Shown here: piece after piece, positions 8,169 through 18,573 of the stretch
How the letters are laid out: every line of letters begins with the position of its first letter
Numbering within the stretch: the first letter of the stretch is position 1
Source of the DNA: Candidatus Amunia macphersoniae
GTDB lineage: Bacteria > Chloroflexota > Dormibacteria > Aeolococcales > Aeolococcaceae
Assembly: GCA_016464795.1 (NCBI GenBank)
Contig: JAEKNN010000062.1
Span: forward strand, 1-64,000
Length of the DNA stretch: 64,000 nt
Reading direction: 5' to 3'
Notes under the pieces: model-generated
Database searches by the model: none
The model's input: the letters and a program-made list of their open reading frames with translations, nothing else
What the model was told of the DNA's origin: nothing
Program-made: the position numbers and the translations under genes

Positions 8169-8468
8169 ATGGTCCAACTGGACAGCGGGGGAGAGGAACG
8201 GCGCGTTCGACTGCGTCGCCTCGACGACTGCCTCAATATCCTCGAGCAGGCCCACGAGCTCGACCTCACCCTGGTGACCGCCGGCATGGCGGATGCCCTG
8301 AGCGAGCGTGTTGCCACCATACGCGAAGGGATGGTCATCGCCGACGCCATCGAGGAGGTGTTGCGTCAGCAGGAGCCCTACATGATCCAGGTACGGCCGG
8401 AGGTGACCCGCCGGGTGCGCCGCCGCCGCGACCCCTTCGACGTGCGCCTCCTGTTGAATCGACGGTGA
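8169..8468 (+). CDS. Uncharacterised 99-aa protein
   Basis: I do not recognise this family. The 99-aa product is soluble and predicted mostly helical, with acidic and basic patches (LRRLDDCLNILEQAHELDLT) and an Arg-rich C-terminal half (VTRRVRRRRDP). The start ATG 8169 is supported by a TANNNT box 7 nt upstream and the end overlaps the UPF0182 start by 4 nt (GTGA), so the two are probably co-transcribed and translationally coupled. The lack of a signal or membrane segment suggests a cytosolic partner or regulator, but that is inference only. Confidence 0.7.
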   Translation: MVQLDSGGEERRVRLRRLDDCLNILEQAHELDLTLVTAGMADALSERVATIREGMVIADAIEEVLRQQEPYMIQVRPEVTRRVRRRRDPFDVRLLLNRR

Positions 8469-11400
8469 GCGCGTTCGGCTTCGACCCGGAGGAGATCCTC
8501 CGCAGACGCCGAGGTCCGCGCGTGGTCCGAACCGGCGGCGGCCCGCCGGTGAGCCACCGTGGCCGCCGCATCGCGGCCGTGATCGTGGCGATCCTGATCG
8601 CCATCGGGATCATCGGGCGCTGGCTGCTGAGCCTGCGTGCGAGCTATCTCTACTACGCCAGCCTCAACCACACCAACGTCTTCTGGACGCCCTTCATCGC
8701 CCAGGTGGTGCTGTTCCTGATCGGAGCCCTGATCACCGGCGGTGGTGTCTCCTTGAGCATCGTTGGCTGGGTGCGGGCGGCGCGCAATCTCGATGAGTAC
8801 GGCGGCCGTGTCGCCAAGTGGGCGGGAATCGCGGTGGCCCTGGTCGCTGCCATCGCCGGGGGAGCCTTCCTCTCGGGTCAGTGGCAGGAGGTCCTGCAGT
8901 GGCTTCACGGCCCGTCGTTCGGGGCCACCGACCCCGTCTTCGGCCAGGATTACTCGTTCTTCGTCTTCACTCTGCCGGTGCTCGATGACCTCCAGGGCCT
9001 GCTCTGGGCAGTGGCGCTGGTGGGTTTGATCGGCGCCCTGGGGATCGCCGCCGCGTCCTTCTCGCTGGCCAACACGCCACCCGAGGTCACCCTTCCCGTC
9101 AAGGCGCCGGAGGGACGAAGCTTCGATGAGGGCTTCCGCTCCGCGGTCATCCACGCCGGCTACTGCCTTGTCGGCATCTTCGTGCTGGCCGCGCTGGGGG
9201 CACACTTCGGCGTCTATCACCTGGCGACCTCGCAGCACGACAACTTCGTGGGCCTCGATGCCACTCAGCGCAACGTCACCCGCCCGGTGCTCGGCGCTCT
9301 GCAATGGATTGCACTGGCGCTCGCCCTCCTCACCCTGGTGCTCACCATCGTGCGCCGCCGCCGCCGGACCGGGTCGAGCGCCGCCATCTTCGCGGGGACG
9401 CTGGTGGGCTGGCTGGTCCTCGCCGGCGTCGTCCAGGGTGTGCCCGCCCTCATCTACCAGGGTGCCTCGGTCAACCCCAATGCGCAGGTGGCCCAGACGC
9501 CGTCGATCAACGATTACCTCGCCACCAGCCGGTACGCCTGGGGGCTGATGCCCTCCGACGTTCAGGTGCGCAGCTTCGGCACCGTCGGGCCGCCGACGCT
9601 GGGCGACCTCGCCGCTGATCCCGGGACGCTGCGCAACGTCCGCATCCAGGACACCACTCAGCTGCGCGACACCTTCGCCCAGATCGACCGCAGCCGCAGC
9701 TACCAGACCTACCCGACGATCACCGTGGATCGATACCCAGCGGCGGCGTCGAGCGTTGGGGGAGGTGCCACCGAGGTGATGCTCGGTCCGCGCGAGATCG
9801 CCGAGAACGACATCCCCAACTCGTCCTTCGTCAACAGGGCTCTCAACTACACCCACGGCTACGGGGTCACCGCGGTGTCGGTCAACGCGGTCGCCTCTGA
9901 GGGCAAGCCGCAGGTGCTCGTCGGCCAGCAGCCGATGAAGCAGGTGTCGCCCGACGCGCCGCCCAGCCTGAGCTTCAACGGCGGCGCGGGCGACCCACGC
10001 ATCTACTGTGGCCTCAACACGACTCAGGCGGTGGTGAGCGGAACCCAGCAGAGCGAGTTCGACTACCCCGCGGGCGGCGGGGATGCAACCTTCCACGCCG
10101 GCGCGGAGATGAATGGGATCGCCGTCGGCAACGTGCTCGACAAGCTGGCTGTCTCCATCGACGCGTTCGGTGGTCTCGACCTCTTCCTCAACAACTCCCT
10201 GACGGACAGCAGCCGGGTGCTGGTGCGCCGCGAGATCAAGGATCGCATCACCAGCATCGCTCCCTTCCTCCACGTCGACGGGGATCCGTACGTGGTCGTC
10301 GACGCCAGCACCGGCCACCTCAACTATGTCGCGGACGCCTATGTCCAGACCGATCGCTTCCCAGAGTCCGCCGTTGAGAACGGCACCTCGTACATGCGCA
10401 ACGCGGTCAAGGCTGTCGTCGATGCGCGGACCTGTGGCATCACGCTCTACGCCGTCGATCTCAACGAGCCGATCACCGCGGCATGGAATGCGATCTACCC
10501 GGGCCTGCTCCAGCCGCTCAGCGCGATGTCATCGACGCTGCGAGCGCACTTGCGCTACCCGGAGGACCTCTTCACAGCACAGTCGCAGGTCTACGCCAAT
10601 GTGCACGTGAGCAGCGCCTCGGTGTTCTTCAACGGCAGCGATCGGTACCGCATCGCCCAGCAACAGCTCAATTCGCAGCAACAGGACACAACGCCGTACT
10701 ACGTCGAGCTCACGTTGCCGGGCGACTCTCAGCCGACGTTCGTCCTGTTCCAGTCGTTCTCACCCGCCAGCTCCAGCGGAGGCGGCGCCAACAACATGAC
10801 TGCCTGGCTCGCCGCGCAGTCCGACTACACGACCACCAACCACCCCAAGCTTGTGGCTGTCCCGCTCAACAACTCTTCCAACGTGCTCGGTCCCCTGCAG
10901 TTCGACAACAACATCAACACCGACCCGATCATCAGCCCCGAGATCAGCCTGCTCAGCCAGCACGGGTCGTCGGTCATCCTCGGCAACGTGATAGTGCTGC
11001 CGTTCAACAACAACTCGTTCCTGTACGTGCGCCCGTTGTACGTTCTCGCGTCAGGCGCGTCCGGGGGCACCGCATTCCCACAGCTTCACGAGGTGATAGT
11101 GGGAACCCAGAACACAGTTGCCCAGGGAGCCTCGTTCACGGAGGCCCTTCAGACACTGTTCCAAACCACCCAGGCGATCGCCGGGCTGCCCAGCCCGACC
11201 ACCACGCCGACCGCGCCGACGCCACCGACGACCCCGACCACCCCGCCCTCGCCGGCGAACTTCACCACCCAGGAGCTGGCGCTGCTCAACGATCTCCTCA
11301 AACACGAGCAGGCGGCCGAGGCAGCCCTGCAGAAGGGTGACTTCTCGACGTTCGGCAAGGAGGAGGACCTGGTCAAGGCCGACACCGCCAAGCTGACCGC

Positions 11401-11506
11401 GCTGATCCAGCAGAACCCGCCGCCGTCCCCATCCCCGTCAGCAGCAGCGAGCCCCGGCGCCAGCCCCACTCCCACTCCCACTCCCACTCCCATTCCCACT
11501 CCGTAG
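8465..11506 (+). CDS. UPF0182 family integral membrane protein
   Basis: 1013 aa from GTG 8465. The N-terminal third carries about seven hydrophobic segments (for example IAAVIVAILIAIGIIGRWLL near residue 40), followed by a large extracytoplasmic region with typical UPF0182 phrases such as TVDRYP, GPREIAENDIPNSSFVNRALNYTHGYG and VNAIYPGLLQPL-like text. The family is widespread in Actinobacteria and related phyla and has no established function. The C-terminus is unusual: a Pro/Thr linker near residue 905, a helical segment, then a (Pro-Thr)n tail that may span or contact the cell wall. It is coupled to the 99-aa gene upstream. Confidence 0.92.
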   Translation: MSAFGFDPEEILRRRRGPRVVRTGGGPPVSHRGRRIAAVIVAILIAIGIIGRWLLSLRASYLYYASLNHTNVFWTPFIAQVVLFLIGALITGGGVSLSIVGWVRAARNLDEYGGRVAKWAGIAVALVAAIAGGAFLSGQWQEVLQWLHGPSFGATDPVFGQDYSFFVFTLPVLDDLQGLLWAVALVGLIGALGIAAASFSLANTPPEVTLPVKAPEGRSFDEGFRSAVIHAGYCLVGIFVLAALGAHFGVYHLATSQHDNFVGLDATQRNVTRPVLGALQWIALALALLTLVLTIVRRRRRTGSSAAIFAGTLVGWLVLAGVVQGVPALIYQGASVNPNAQVAQTPSINDYLATSRYAWGLMPSDVQVRSFGTVGPPTLGDLAADPGTLRNVRIQDTTQLRDTFAQIDRSRSYQTYPTITVDRYPAAASSVGGGATEVMLGPREIAENDIPNSSFVNRALNYTHGYGVTAVSVNAVASEGKPQVLVGQQPMKQVSPDAPPSLSFNGGAGDPRIYCGLNTTQAVVSGTQQSEFDYPAGGGDATFHAGAEMNGIAVGNVLDKLAVSIDAFGGLDLFLNNSLTDSSRVLVRREIKDRITSIAPFLHVDGDPYVVVDASTGHLNYVADAYVQTDRFPESAVENGTSYMRNAVKAVVDARTCGITLYAVDLNEPITAAWNAIYPGLLQPLSAMSSTLRAHLRYPEDLFTAQSQVYANVHVSSASVFFNGSDRYRIAQQQLNSQQQDTTPYYVELTLPGDSQPTFVLFQSFSPASSSGGGANNMTAWLAAQSDYTTTNHPKLVAVPLNNSSNVLGPLQFDNNINTDPIISPEISLLSQHGSSVILGNVIVLPFNNNSFLYVRPLYVLASGASGGTAFPQLHEVIVGTQNTVAQGASFTEALQTLFQTTQAIAGLPSPTTTPTAPTPPTTPTTPPSPANFTTQELALLNDLLKHEQAAEAALQKGDFSTFGKEEDLVKADTAKLTALIQQNPPPSPSPSAAASPGASPTPTPTPTPIPTP

Positions 11507-11555: not shown

Positions 11556-11556
11556 A
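11556..11556 (+). other. Predicted transcription start coinciding with the ATG of the MBL-fold gene
   Basis: Inferred only from the 6-nt distance between the -10 box and the start codon; an mRNA 5'-end map would settle it. Confidence 0.25.
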
Positions 11557-12485
11557 TGGACCTGATCGCCCCCGGCATCCGCCAGATCGACACCCTGCTC
11601 GGCGGCATGGACCGGATGACCGCCGGCTTCCTGATCGACGGCGCCCAGCCGGCGCTGGTCGAGACGGGATCCCAGAGCAGCGTGGCGGCGGTGCGGGAGG
11701 CCCTGACCGCCGCAGGCCTTGGGGCCGCCGACCTCCGCTGGATCGTGGTCACGCACATCCACCTCGACCATGCCGGAGGCGTCGGCGACATGGCGGCCGC
11801 CTTCCCCAACGCCACCGTCGTCGTCCATGAGCGCGGCGCCCGGCACCTGGTCGACCCCAGCAGGCTCATCGACAGCGCAGCGCGGGTGTATGGGCCCCTG
11901 CTCGACGGGCTGTACGGGCGCATGCTGCCCGTCCCCGAGGAGCGGCTGGTTGCCGCCGCGGATGGCCACCGGGTCGACCTCGGCGACGGCCACTTCCTCA
12001 CCATGGTGGACTCCCCGGGCCACGCCAAGCACCATCACGCCGTGCTCGACGAGCACACCGGCACGCTGCTGGTCGGTGATGCCGTCGGTGTGAAGCTGCC
12101 CGACGTGGGCATCCTCCGGCCGGCGACCCCGCCGCCCGACTTCGATCTGGAGCAGGCGACCGCCAGCCTCCGTCGCTTCACCGAGCTTCGCCCCCAGCAG
12201 GTGGTGCTGACGCACTACGGACCTGTCGCCGACCCCATCGAGACCCTCACTGCGGCCGAGGACATGCTTCACCGGTGGGTGGAGGTGGCCGATCGGACCA
12301 TGCGCGCCAGTGAGGACGCCGGCATCGACGACGTCGCCACCGCCCTCGCCGAGGCCTTCGCCGCACTGCCGCCGGACGTCCCCGATGCTGTGCGCGAGAA
12401 GTTGGAGGTTCTCAACGGGGTCCACAGCAACGCCGCGGGGATTGTCAGGTACCTCGCACAGCGCGAGCCCGCGCACCTGGAGTGA
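11556..12485 (+). CDS. MBL-fold metallo-hydrolase
   Basis: 309-aa metallo-beta-lactamase-fold enzyme. The dinuclear zinc motif is clear: THIHLDHAGG near residue 66, a further His in DSPGHAKHHHAVL near residue 152, Asp in VGDAVGV, and a C-terminal HYG. A helical C-terminal domain of about 80 residues follows (TAAEDMLHRWVEVADRTMRA), as in MBL proteins related to glyoxalase II or quorum-quenching lactonases. No signal peptide, so cytosolic. Substrate cannot be assigned. It overlaps the next gene by 4 nt. Confidence 0.88.
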   Translation: MDLIAPGIRQIDTLLGGMDRMTAGFLIDGAQPALVETGSQSSVAAVREALTAAGLGAADLRWIVVTHIHLDHAGGVGDMAAAFPNATVVVHERGARHLVDPSRLIDSAARVYGPLLDGLYGRMLPVPEERLVAAADGHRVDLGDGHFLTMVDSPGHAKHHHAVLDEHTGTLLVGDAVGVKLPDVGILRPATPPPDFDLEQATASLRRFTELRPQQVVLTHYGPVADPIETLTAAEDMLHRWVEVADRTMRASEDAGIDDVATALAEAFAALPPDVPDAVREKLEVLNGVHSNAAGIVRYLAQREPAHLE

Positions 12486-13534
12486 GCAGCGCGCGGGCAT
12501 CCGGCACCCGCTTGCTGGCCGCGGTGGTGTTGAGCGCCTGCATCGGTGTCATCGGAGGCGGCCTCGGCGCCTGGGGCGTGTACACGCACTTCGGACCTGT
12601 GGAGCGGGTCATCACCCAAACCAAAACGGGGGGCGGGGGCATCTCCGTCGGGGACATCGCCACCGCTGTCAAGCCGTCCCTGGTCACCGTCAGCACCCAA
12701 CCGGTGACGCCCGCGGCGGTGGCGACGGGCGCGGCCAGCGGCCTGTCCCAGGGATTCGCGGTCAGCGGCGACGGGCTGATCGTGACCTCGGCGCGCTCGG
12801 TTCGCGGCGCCTCCCGGCTTCGGGTGGCCACAGCTGACGGCAGGGCTTTCGACGCCACCATCGCCGCCAGCGACGTGCGCGCCGGCATCGTGGTGCTGCG
12901 CGCCGCCGGCGCGACCGGCCTCACCTCTCTGCGCATCGCCGCCCAGGATCCGCGCATCGGTGACCTGGCAGTAGTCGCGTACAGGGCGCCACTGGGCACC
13001 CTGACCGCCCGGAGCGGTGTGGTTGCGGCGGTCGGCATCGACGCCAGCGACGGCAAGGTCGACCTCGCCGACCTGGTCGCCGTCGACTCCTCGGCCGCGC
13101 CCGACGCGGAGGGGGCGCCGCTCGTGGATGGCACCGGTGCGGTCATCGGTGTGGTCACCACCGTGTCGTCGGCCCCCGGGGTGGTGGCGTCGTCGGGACG
13201 CGACGCGGCCGCGCTCATCGGTGGGGTTCAGCGTGGCTCGCCCCTGGCGGCGGCGAGCTTCGGTGCCACCGGTGTGATCGTGGACGCCTCCAGCGCCGCC
13301 GCGCTCGGGGTGCCGCCAGGGGCGCTGATCAGGTCGGTGGTCCCTGGCGGCCCCGCCTCCGGGGTGCTGGCCCCCGGCGACGTCGTCACCGCCATCAACG
13401 GCACCGCAGTCACCGCGTCGACGGGTTTTCAGCCGAACGACTTCGGCCTGGTCGTCGGTGACCGGACCACCCTGAGGGTGACGGGCTCGGATGGTGTCCC
13501 GCGAACCGTGACGCTGATCGTCGCCGCGGGCTGA
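12482..13534 (+). CDS. Membrane-anchored HtrA-like pseudoprotease with PDZ domain
   Basis: 350 aa from GTG 12482. Residues 10-35 form a signal anchor, then a linker, a trypsin-like (S1C) fold and a PDZ domain (about 260-350). Aligned by motif to HtrA, the catalytic His position (TSAH) is Arg105 in TSARSV, the Asp position (TDLAVL) is Gly125 in AGIVVLR, and the Ser position (GNSGGPL) is Glu210 in DAEGAPLVDG. All three triad residues therefore appear lost while fold landmarks remain. It may bind peptides or scaffold rather than cleave. A triad-intact relative lies at 17602. Start overlaps the previous stop (GTGA). Confidence 0.8.
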   Translation: MSSARASGTRLLAAVVLSACIGVIGGGLGAWGVYTHFGPVERVITQTKTGGGGISVGDIATAVKPSLVTVSTQPVTPAAVATGAASGLSQGFAVSGDGLIVTSARSVRGASRLRVATADGRAFDATIAASDVRAGIVVLRAAGATGLTSLRIAAQDPRIGDLAVVAYRAPLGTLTARSGVVAAVGIDASDGKVDLADLVAVDSSAAPDAEGAPLVDGTGAVIGVVTTVSSAPGVVASSGRDAAALIGGVQRGSPLAAASFGATGVIVDASSAAALGVPPGALIRSVVPGGPASGVLAPGDVVTAINGTAVTASTGFQPNDFGLVVGDRTTLRVTGSDGVPRTVTLIVAAG

Positions 13535-13577: not shown

Positions 13578-15951
<2,374 letters not shown>

Positions 15952-17601: not shown

Positions 17602-18573
17602 GTGGCCATCCAGCCACCGCCGAGCGCCGGGGCAGACGAAGCGCCGCTCGATGCGTACTCGCGTGTTGTCAGCAGCGTGGCCGCAGCGCTCGCCCCGTCC
17701 GTGGTCAGCTTGCTGGTCGACAGGCAGAGGGCTGCGAAGCGGGTGCCGGGTGGGAGCGGATCGGCCTGGGTGCTGACACCCGATGGCTACCTGGTCACCT
17801 CGGCGCATGTGGTCCATGGCTCCGCCGGCGGCAGCGCGCACGTCGCCGACGGGCGCCGGCTGCCCTTCGAGGTGATCGGCACCGATGTGCTCTCCGATCT
17901 CGCCGTGGTGCGAACCGCAGCCTGCGACCTGGTGCCGGCGCCGATCGGTGACGCCGACCGGCTGCGCGTGGGCGAGCTGGTGGTCGCCATCGGCAACCCT
18001 CACGGTCTGGCCGGTTCGGTGACCGCCGGTGTGGTCAGCGCGCTGGGTCGATCCCTGCCCATCGTCGCCGGCGACCACCGCAGCGTGGTGGAGAACGTCA
18101 TCCAGACCGATGCCGCCCTCAATCCCGGCAACTCTGGTGGAGCCCTGGCCGACGGCAGCGGGCGGGTGGTCGGGGTCACAGCCCTGGCGGGCTACGGGCT
18201 GGGGTTGGCGGTCCCGGTCAACCCCACCACCCTCGGCATGATCGCCGCGCTGATCAGGCACGGTCGGGTGCGACGAGCGTTTCTGGGCGTCGCCGGCCGT
18301 GCCTACCAGCTGTCACCCCGGCTCGCCGCCCAGCTGGGGCGGCCGCGGGGCATGCGGGTGGTGGAGGTGGTCCCGGCGAGCGCCGCCGACGGTGCCCGGA
18401 TTCGGCCCGGAGACGTCATCGTCGAGGTCGAGGGACGGCCGGTGCAGACTGCCGGCGACCTCCAGCGGCTGATGGCGTCGGACCTTGTCGACCGGTTCGC
18501 CATCCTTCGGGTGGTGCGCGATGGCGACCTGCTCAACATGACGGTGATCCCGGCCGAGCTTCGCGCCGCCTGA
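17602..18573 (+). CDS. HtrA/DegP-like S1C serine protease with PDZ domain
   Basis: 323 aa from GTG 17602. The triad is intact: His69 in DGYLVTSAHVV, Asp99 in VLSDLAVV, Ser178 in NPGNSGGAL. A C-terminal PDZ domain covers about residues 225-320 (GMRVVEVVPASAADGARIRPGDVIVEVEGRPV). No signal peptide or membrane anchor is visible, so it appears cytosolic, unlike typical HtrA proteins. An upstream start does not exist in frame without overlapping the RHH-like gene, so an anchor is not simply missed. Probable role: protein quality control or regulated proteolysis. Compare with the triad-less, anchored relative at 12482. Confidence 0.88.
   Translation: MAIQPPPSAGADEAPLDAYSRVVSSVAAALAPSVVSLLVDRQRAAKRVPGGSGSAWVLTPDGYLVTSAHVVHGSAGGSAHVADGRRLPFEVIGTDVLSDLAVVRTAACDLVPAPIGDADRLRVGELVVAIGNPHGLAGSVTAGVVSALGRSLPIVAGDHRSVVENVIQTDAALNPGNSGGALADGSGRVVGVTALAGYGLGLAVPVNPTTLGMIAALIRHGRVRRAFLGVAGRAYQLSPRLAAQLGRPRGMRVVEVVPASAADGARIRPGDVIVEVEGRPVQTAGDLQRLMASDLVDRFAILRVVRDGDLLNMTVIPAELRAA

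Follow-up and report, generated by a model that had tools for sequence, protein, structure and literature searches.

A predicted membrane-anchored HtrA pseudoprotease at a conserved locus of the Dormibacteria, with graded loss of the catalytic triad across the class

What remains of a protease that has kept its shape and lost the residues that cut? The question is raised by an open reading frame at 12482-13534 on the forward strand of the window, the stretch of 64,000 nucleotides from Candidatus Amunia macphersoniae (Chloroflexota, Dormibacteria) analyzed here, whose 350-residue product is identified by its reading frame, Pfam matches, structural model and PDB matches as a membrane-anchored HtrA (S1C-type) pseudoprotease. 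A preliminary description, made from the letters of the sequence, had reported an HtrA-like protein with all three triad residues replaced and had proposed an inactive sensor or scaffold in the envelope; the results below confirm that observation in part and lend the interpretation partial support. We give roughly even odds (about 0.5) to the reading that the protein is a non-proteolytic, membrane-anchored PDZ scaffold or adaptor, derived in place from an active DegS-shaped HtrA.

The frame opens with a GTG start codon, and its translation carries a Pfam Trypsin_2 match at residues 91-224 (E 9.1e-14; 52.8 bits against a cut-off of 27.6) and a PDZ_2 match at residues 272-334 (E 2.7e-7; 31.2 bits against a cut-off of 27), with the Pfam PDZ matches falling inside residues 260-334 and all Pfam matches on the given strand. 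An AlphaFold2 model, a monomer built from 19 sequences (mean pLDDT 82.3; pTM 0.60), has an HtrA fold consisting of a long N-terminal helix, a trypsin-like barrel at about residues 56-250 (12647-13231) and a C-terminal PDZ domain at about residues 258-346 (13253-13519), the last with pLDDT of 81-96 per 10-residue block from residue 261. The phmmer search of the PDB matched 81 sequences, of which the best 60 of 81 were HtrA, Deg or DegS types; Foldseek placed DegQ, DegP, Deg1, AlgW and DegS nearest among solved structures (E down to 1.3e-23), and VIA-align gave Z about 28 (27-28 in the top rows) to Deg1, DegQ and DegP chains over 273-296 residues. The N-terminal helix, assigned by DSSP to residues 5-36 of the model (12494-12589), includes the best 19-residue hydropathy of the protein (2.2 at residue 11) and has two arginines, Arg5 and Arg10, at its N-terminal side, so that the envelope location supposed earlier agrees with the prediction. 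To judge by the model, the product is a real HtrA/DegS-shaped protein with one membrane helix, one trypsin-like barrel and one PDZ domain, and the claim of a kept fold with a PDZ domain is borne out by the agreement of the Pfam matches, the model and its overlay on solved HtrAs.

By descent the window protein is an HtrA homologue; an HtrA protease it is not. When aligned with 18 other HtrAs (the intact paralogue of the window, two HtrAs of named genome contigs and 15 HtrA-like IMG/VR proteins), the near-invariant His, Asp and Ser columns fall on residues 105, 135 and 210, and a separate alignment of relatives returned the same columns. Read in codons on the forward strand, the former His position is Arg105 (CGC, 12794-12796), the former Asp position Gly135 (GGC, 12884-12886) and the former Ser position Glu210 (GAG, 13109-13111), and the His-Asp-Ser triad is absent. 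The preliminary description had the first and the last of these right and misplaced the second, since its Gly125 is an alanine (GCC) and the Asp equivalent is Gly135. The protein holds three lysines (48, 64 and 192), a single histidine (residue 36, where the membrane helix ends) and a single cysteine (residue 20, within it). A residue count finds neither His nor Cys in residues 56-350, making a Ser-His-Asp, Cys-His or similar set impossible in the barrel; we therefore reject an alternative catalytic set, so that the overlay named in the preliminary description as its refutation cannot arise, and the same count excludes a His- or Cys-type metal site there. Judged on its residues, and with the Asp lost in 79 of the 99 orthologues described below, proteolytic inactivity of the window protein is close to certain, as had been proposed.

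The gene sits in a compact run in the order UPF0182 (a membrane protein gene, 8465-11506), MBL1 (metallo-beta-lactamase fold, 11556-12485), pseudoprotease, MBL2 (metallo-beta-lactamase fold, 13578-14204) and pyrG (CTP synthase, 14287-15951), all on the forward strand. The stop of MBL1 overlaps the pseudoprotease start by 4 bases and 43 bases separate the pseudoprotease stop from the MBL2 start, which makes co-expression likely. MBL2 is the most constant neighbor in the class and pyrG the second, and UPF0182 is a neighbor in the family of the window protein (f1, below). One genome (G023) has no MBL1 match before the pseudoprotease and retains UPF0182; its MBL2 (L125) has a frame break with one TGA, and the pseudoprotease match of another genome (G027, L030) is split between frames, both being likely draft-genome errors. 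Genera differ in what lies between pyrG and prfA, with extra stretches of 1-5 kb (L078, L080 and L076, from G010, G023 and G008 respectively) and an inverted glpX-like match in G010.

A triad-intact relative noted earlier some 4 kb downstream is present at 17602-18573 on the forward strand (H69, D99, S178). By eye it has no N-terminal membrane segment, its best 19-residue hydropathy (1.87 at residue 22) lying within the first part of the barrel, and it probably sits in another compartment than the pseudoprotease. The pairing of the two that the preliminary description hinted at is weakened by their distribution: the intact paralogue is linked within about 10 kb in three relatives (G002, G008 and G011), was not found near the locus in four others (G010, G013, G007 and G016) and is a remnant in the sister species G003, and we reject it as a conserved partner. 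In that last genome (L074, 4650-4814) the intact HtrA has shrunk to about 55 residues between abmR and a radical SAM gene, through a deletion or an assembly fault, and the pseudoprotease is complete. Directly before the intact HtrA of the window, 17058-17600 matches NCBIfam AbmR, an ATP-binding transcription factor (244 bits against a cut-off of 160), and abmR and the intact HtrA stay paired in the three relatives where the latter is linked. The genome encodes seven other Trypsin_2 proteins, all seven with H-D-S motifs read by eye, six of them encoded elsewhere in the genome and several beginning with a hydrophobic segment (by eye). Protease work thus appears to be covered, and catalysis is not missing from the cell.

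Searching genomes with the pseudoprotease gave matches in 100 of 101, and a single conserved locus, in nearly all cases next to MBL2-pyrG, accounts for 99 orthologues. They form four families: in f1 and f2 the HtrA lies upstream of MBL2 and pyrG as it does in the window, and in f3 and f4 it is followed by a gene reading as argS (by eye), then MBL2 and usually pyrG next, with an acetyltransferase-like gene upstream common to f2 and f4 (by eye). MBL2 lies inside the fetched stretch at 43 of the 47 f1 and f2 loci; at the others the stretch ends before MBL2 (G005, G022 and G039) or MBL2 is 1.8 kb off (G030). No HtrA was found within about 5 kb upstream of MBL2 at any of 20 sampled loci from other classes of the phylum (about 2.5 kb only for G202), and as far as sampled the HtrA locus is class-specific. 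No relative turned up in viral contigs scanned with the window protein, its intact paralogue and an alignment as queries, and a scan of genome contigs returned only two distant HtrAs with intact triads.

The state of the triad differs between these families. Twenty of the 99 orthologues keep His-Asp-Ser and 79 are incomplete, and in every one of the 79 the Asp is missing (76 Gly, 3 Ala). Read at positions 105, 135 and 210, the 30 rows of f1 are HGD in 25, SGD in two and RGE (the window), FGV and gap-GD in one each, the gap belonging to G027 with its match split between frames; the 17 rows of f2 are GGS in seven, AGS in seven and GGV, AGA and AGT once each; f3 is HDS in 18 of 18; and the 34 rows of f4 comprise two HDS, one HGS and 31 rows in 15 other combinations, mostly with Gly in the middle. 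G025 has masked bases, the rows of G005 and G022 stop at contig ends, and two further copies seen in one alignment only, G073 (H-G-S) and G087 (Q-G-A), stand outside the 99. Arg105 with Glu210 occurs in the window species alone among the 99, and its two sister species read His-Gly-Asp. The earlier proposal to look for the three replacements among orthologues is thus answered against them: they are rejected as a conserved set, with the sister species keeping the His and having Asp in place of Ser, and only the loss of the Asp is general. All 34 f4 orthologues, intact or degenerate, have exactly two extracytoplasmic cysteines (L131-L184 set), one three residues before the former Asp (window residue 132) and one near the C terminus, a pair that may form a disulfide linking the former active site with the C-terminal end. 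Family f1 is without such a pair, and cysteine of any kind occurs in the domain of just three f1 rows.

A tree of 95 rows (84 of the 99 orthologues plus 11 outgroup HtrAs, with triad columns removed and with G027, G025, G005, G022 and 11 of the 18 f3 rows omitted) recovered f1, f2, f3 and f4 each as one clade (SH-aLRT 98-100), f1 and f2 as sisters (SH-aLRT 100) and all four families apart from the outgroup (SH-aLRT 97). Counted as irreversible losses, a count that depends on this one quick tree, the Asp was lost three times, the His five times and the Ser nine times; the minimum under ordinary parsimony is two, five and seven changes, respectively. Given the intact f3 family, the two intact f4 copies and the outgroup, His-Asp-Ser is likely ancestral. 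With the Asp lost in every incomplete copy and His and Ser in varied combinations, the pattern is that of a protease function no longer needed and a fold still useful.

Selection on the degenerate copies points the same way. By rough Nei-Gojobori estimates, dN/dS is 0.05-0.31 in 18 degenerate orthologue pairs and 0.10 in two intact f3 pairs, and such purifying selection marks the degenerate copies as working pseudoproteases, not decaying genes, leading us to reject a pseudogene. Within the window genus the pseudoprotease has the highest dN/dS of seven locus proteins compared (0.24-0.29), next to 0.11-0.19 for MBL1, 0.14-0.18 for MBL2, 0.10 for pyrG, 0.09-0.11 for abmR, 0.17-0.19 for UPF0182 and 0.20 for the intact paralogue (one usable comparison; the G003 value, with identity 0.31, was excluded, the wrong gene having been compared where the true one is a remnant). 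It is the fastest changing of the seven and yet clearly constrained. Across f1 the membrane segment, barrel and PDZ domain are similarly conserved, so the whole three-part plan has been kept.

We propose that the protein evolved where it stands: an active, DegS-shaped HtrA would have occupied the MBL2-pyrG locus first, and f3 still preserves its triad. The N-terminal helix would anchor the protein in the cytoplasmic membrane, with the dead barrel and the PDZ domain outside, as in DegS. Known HtrA barrels form trimers, and the barrel here may have been retained as a platform, probably trimeric, that bears the PDZ domain. The PDZ domain in turn would most likely bind exposed C termini or stretches of envelope proteins, and the protein, acting as an adaptor or scaffold, would hold them or hand them on, possibly to active extracytoplasmic HtrAs encoded elsewhere. 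A sensor or scaffold role, as first suggested, would on this sequence evidence be plausible. In the trypsin fold the side chains at the former His and Ser positions touch. Along f1 a His/Ser pair would have become a His-Asp contact and, jointly in the window species, an Arg-Glu one. Both the conserved His-Asp pair and its replacement in tandem point to a charged contact that keeps the loops of the former active site together, a contact taken here from the known geometry of the trypsin fold and not from a measured distance; the Arg-Glu contact would then be a structural lock, neither a metal nor a catalytic site. Several points weigh against the scaffold reading: the fastest change in the window genus fits relaxed constraint as well as it fits a new role; conservation of the PDZ domain is no higher than that of the barrel, so that the PDZ domain is not singled out as the working part; and the model is that of a monomer, with mean pLDDT 82 and pTM 0.60.

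Considerably less probable, though the strongest of the alternatives, is that the protein forms a dead subunit in hetero-oligomers with active extracytoplasmic HtrAs and tunes them, much as MamO promotes MamE. The barrel is well kept in the model, six more H-D-S Trypsin_2 proteins are encoded elsewhere in the genome, several with a hydrophobic start, and MamO provides a precedent (PMC4794232, as far as the accessible text goes). The intact HtrA that is actually linked, however, is not conserved beside the pseudoprotease and shows no membrane segment.

A slightly weaker candidate is a protease-free chaperone, in which barrel and PDZ domain would hold unfolded envelope proteins with no partner. 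Class-wide loss of catalysis with a retained fold fits this idea. DegP-type chaperoning, however, works through cages of soluble trimers with two PDZ domains, and the window protein is anchored with one PDZ domain, like DegS and unlike such cages. Proteolytically inactive HtrA variants are described, in the part of the source available, as still protecting cells and suppressing aggregation (PMC11642142).

Somewhat more doubtful again is a bolder reading of the whole class: that a single orthologous HtrA, anchored in the membrane, became an envelope receptor without proteolytic activity, through several independent losses of the Asp after which each family rebuilt the old active site in its own manner (His-Asp then Arg-Glu in f1, Gly/Ala with Ser in f2, Asn/Gln/Asp with Ser/Ala in f4), and that the old substrate cleft has become a pocket in which peptides are bound and sensed.

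That the old active site has acquired new chemistry or binds a metal, for which the di-histidine metal motif of MamO would be the model, seems improbable: the 25 of 30 f1 orthologues that keep the His with Asp in the place of Ser do have a potential metal-binding pair, but residues 56-350 of the window protein contain neither His nor Cys, its Arg-Glu pair keeps the charges and loses the His, and f2 and f4 carry unrelated residues at those positions. Least probable of all is that the gene is decaying as selection relaxes or that the triad codons were misread in sequencing, for although a single base separates the Arg105 and Glu210 codons from codons for His and Asp, respectively, and the dN/dS is the highest among the locus proteins compared, there are no stops within the listed matches, dN is far below dS in 18 of 18 degenerate pairs and the Asp is missing in 79 separate genomes, beyond what errors explain, so that at the family level this explanation is already refuted.

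HtrA pseudoproteases are already known as a kind, in MamO and the plant Degs, and the class-wide family described here differs from them. A close architectural relative is DegS, with which the window protein shares a predicted membrane anchor, a trypsin-like barrel and a single PDZ domain (structural Z 25-27.5). It differs from DegS in lacking the triad His, Asp and Ser and in scoring 43.2 bits against NCBIfam TIGR02038, far below the equivalog cut-off of 422.95; DegS cuts RseA, and such cleavage of an anti-sigma factor is not expected of a protein without catalytic residues. Also close to it is the intact HtrA of f3, which lies in the same place upstream of MBL2, belongs to the same family by the tree and, in the G076 copy, has an N-terminal membrane segment (by eye); it differs in having H-D-S in 18 of 18 copies.

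Among pseudoproteases, MamO is of the HtrA type and, according to the accessible text, furthers the formation of magnetite; MamE-dependent proteolysis requires it despite the absence of a triad of its own (PMC4794232). The window protein resembles it in being derived from HtrA, with a degenerate triad, and probably in being kept for a non-catalytic role (PMC4794232, same portion). MamO, however, has a TauE-like domain where the window protein has no TauE match in Pfam and a PDZ domain instead, and a surface di-His metal motif where the window protein has no His in residues 56-350; against the MamO model the window protein scores 31.3 bits, with a cut-off of 800. The magnetosome losses moreover came after duplication or acquisition of a second protease, whereas here the loss occurred at one orthologous locus. 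Several plant Degs have been judged inactive by their mutated triads, namely AtDeg16, the second domain of AtDeg7 and several rice and moss Degs, and AtDeg16 is without the Asp, the residue generally lost here (PMC3473262, in the text accessible). These are plant proteins, and the accessible part of that source describes no comparable locus or gradient (PMC3473262).

No paper on this HtrA family was found by title or abstract start within the open-licence literature, and as far as that literature was searched, what is new is the family itself, the DegS-like architecture, and a catalytic loss that recurs in graded form at a single orthologous locus throughout a class. Bacterial HtrA pseudoproteases known so far, namely MamO and its relatives, emerged within one specialized pathway and next to an active copy. 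At the orthologous locus described here, active sites range from intact through Asp-less and two-residue-less to wholly replaced among four families of the class, and intact members persist, so that natural sequences allow direct tests of the sequence of events by which a pseudoprotease arises and of the role of an HtrA that does not cut.
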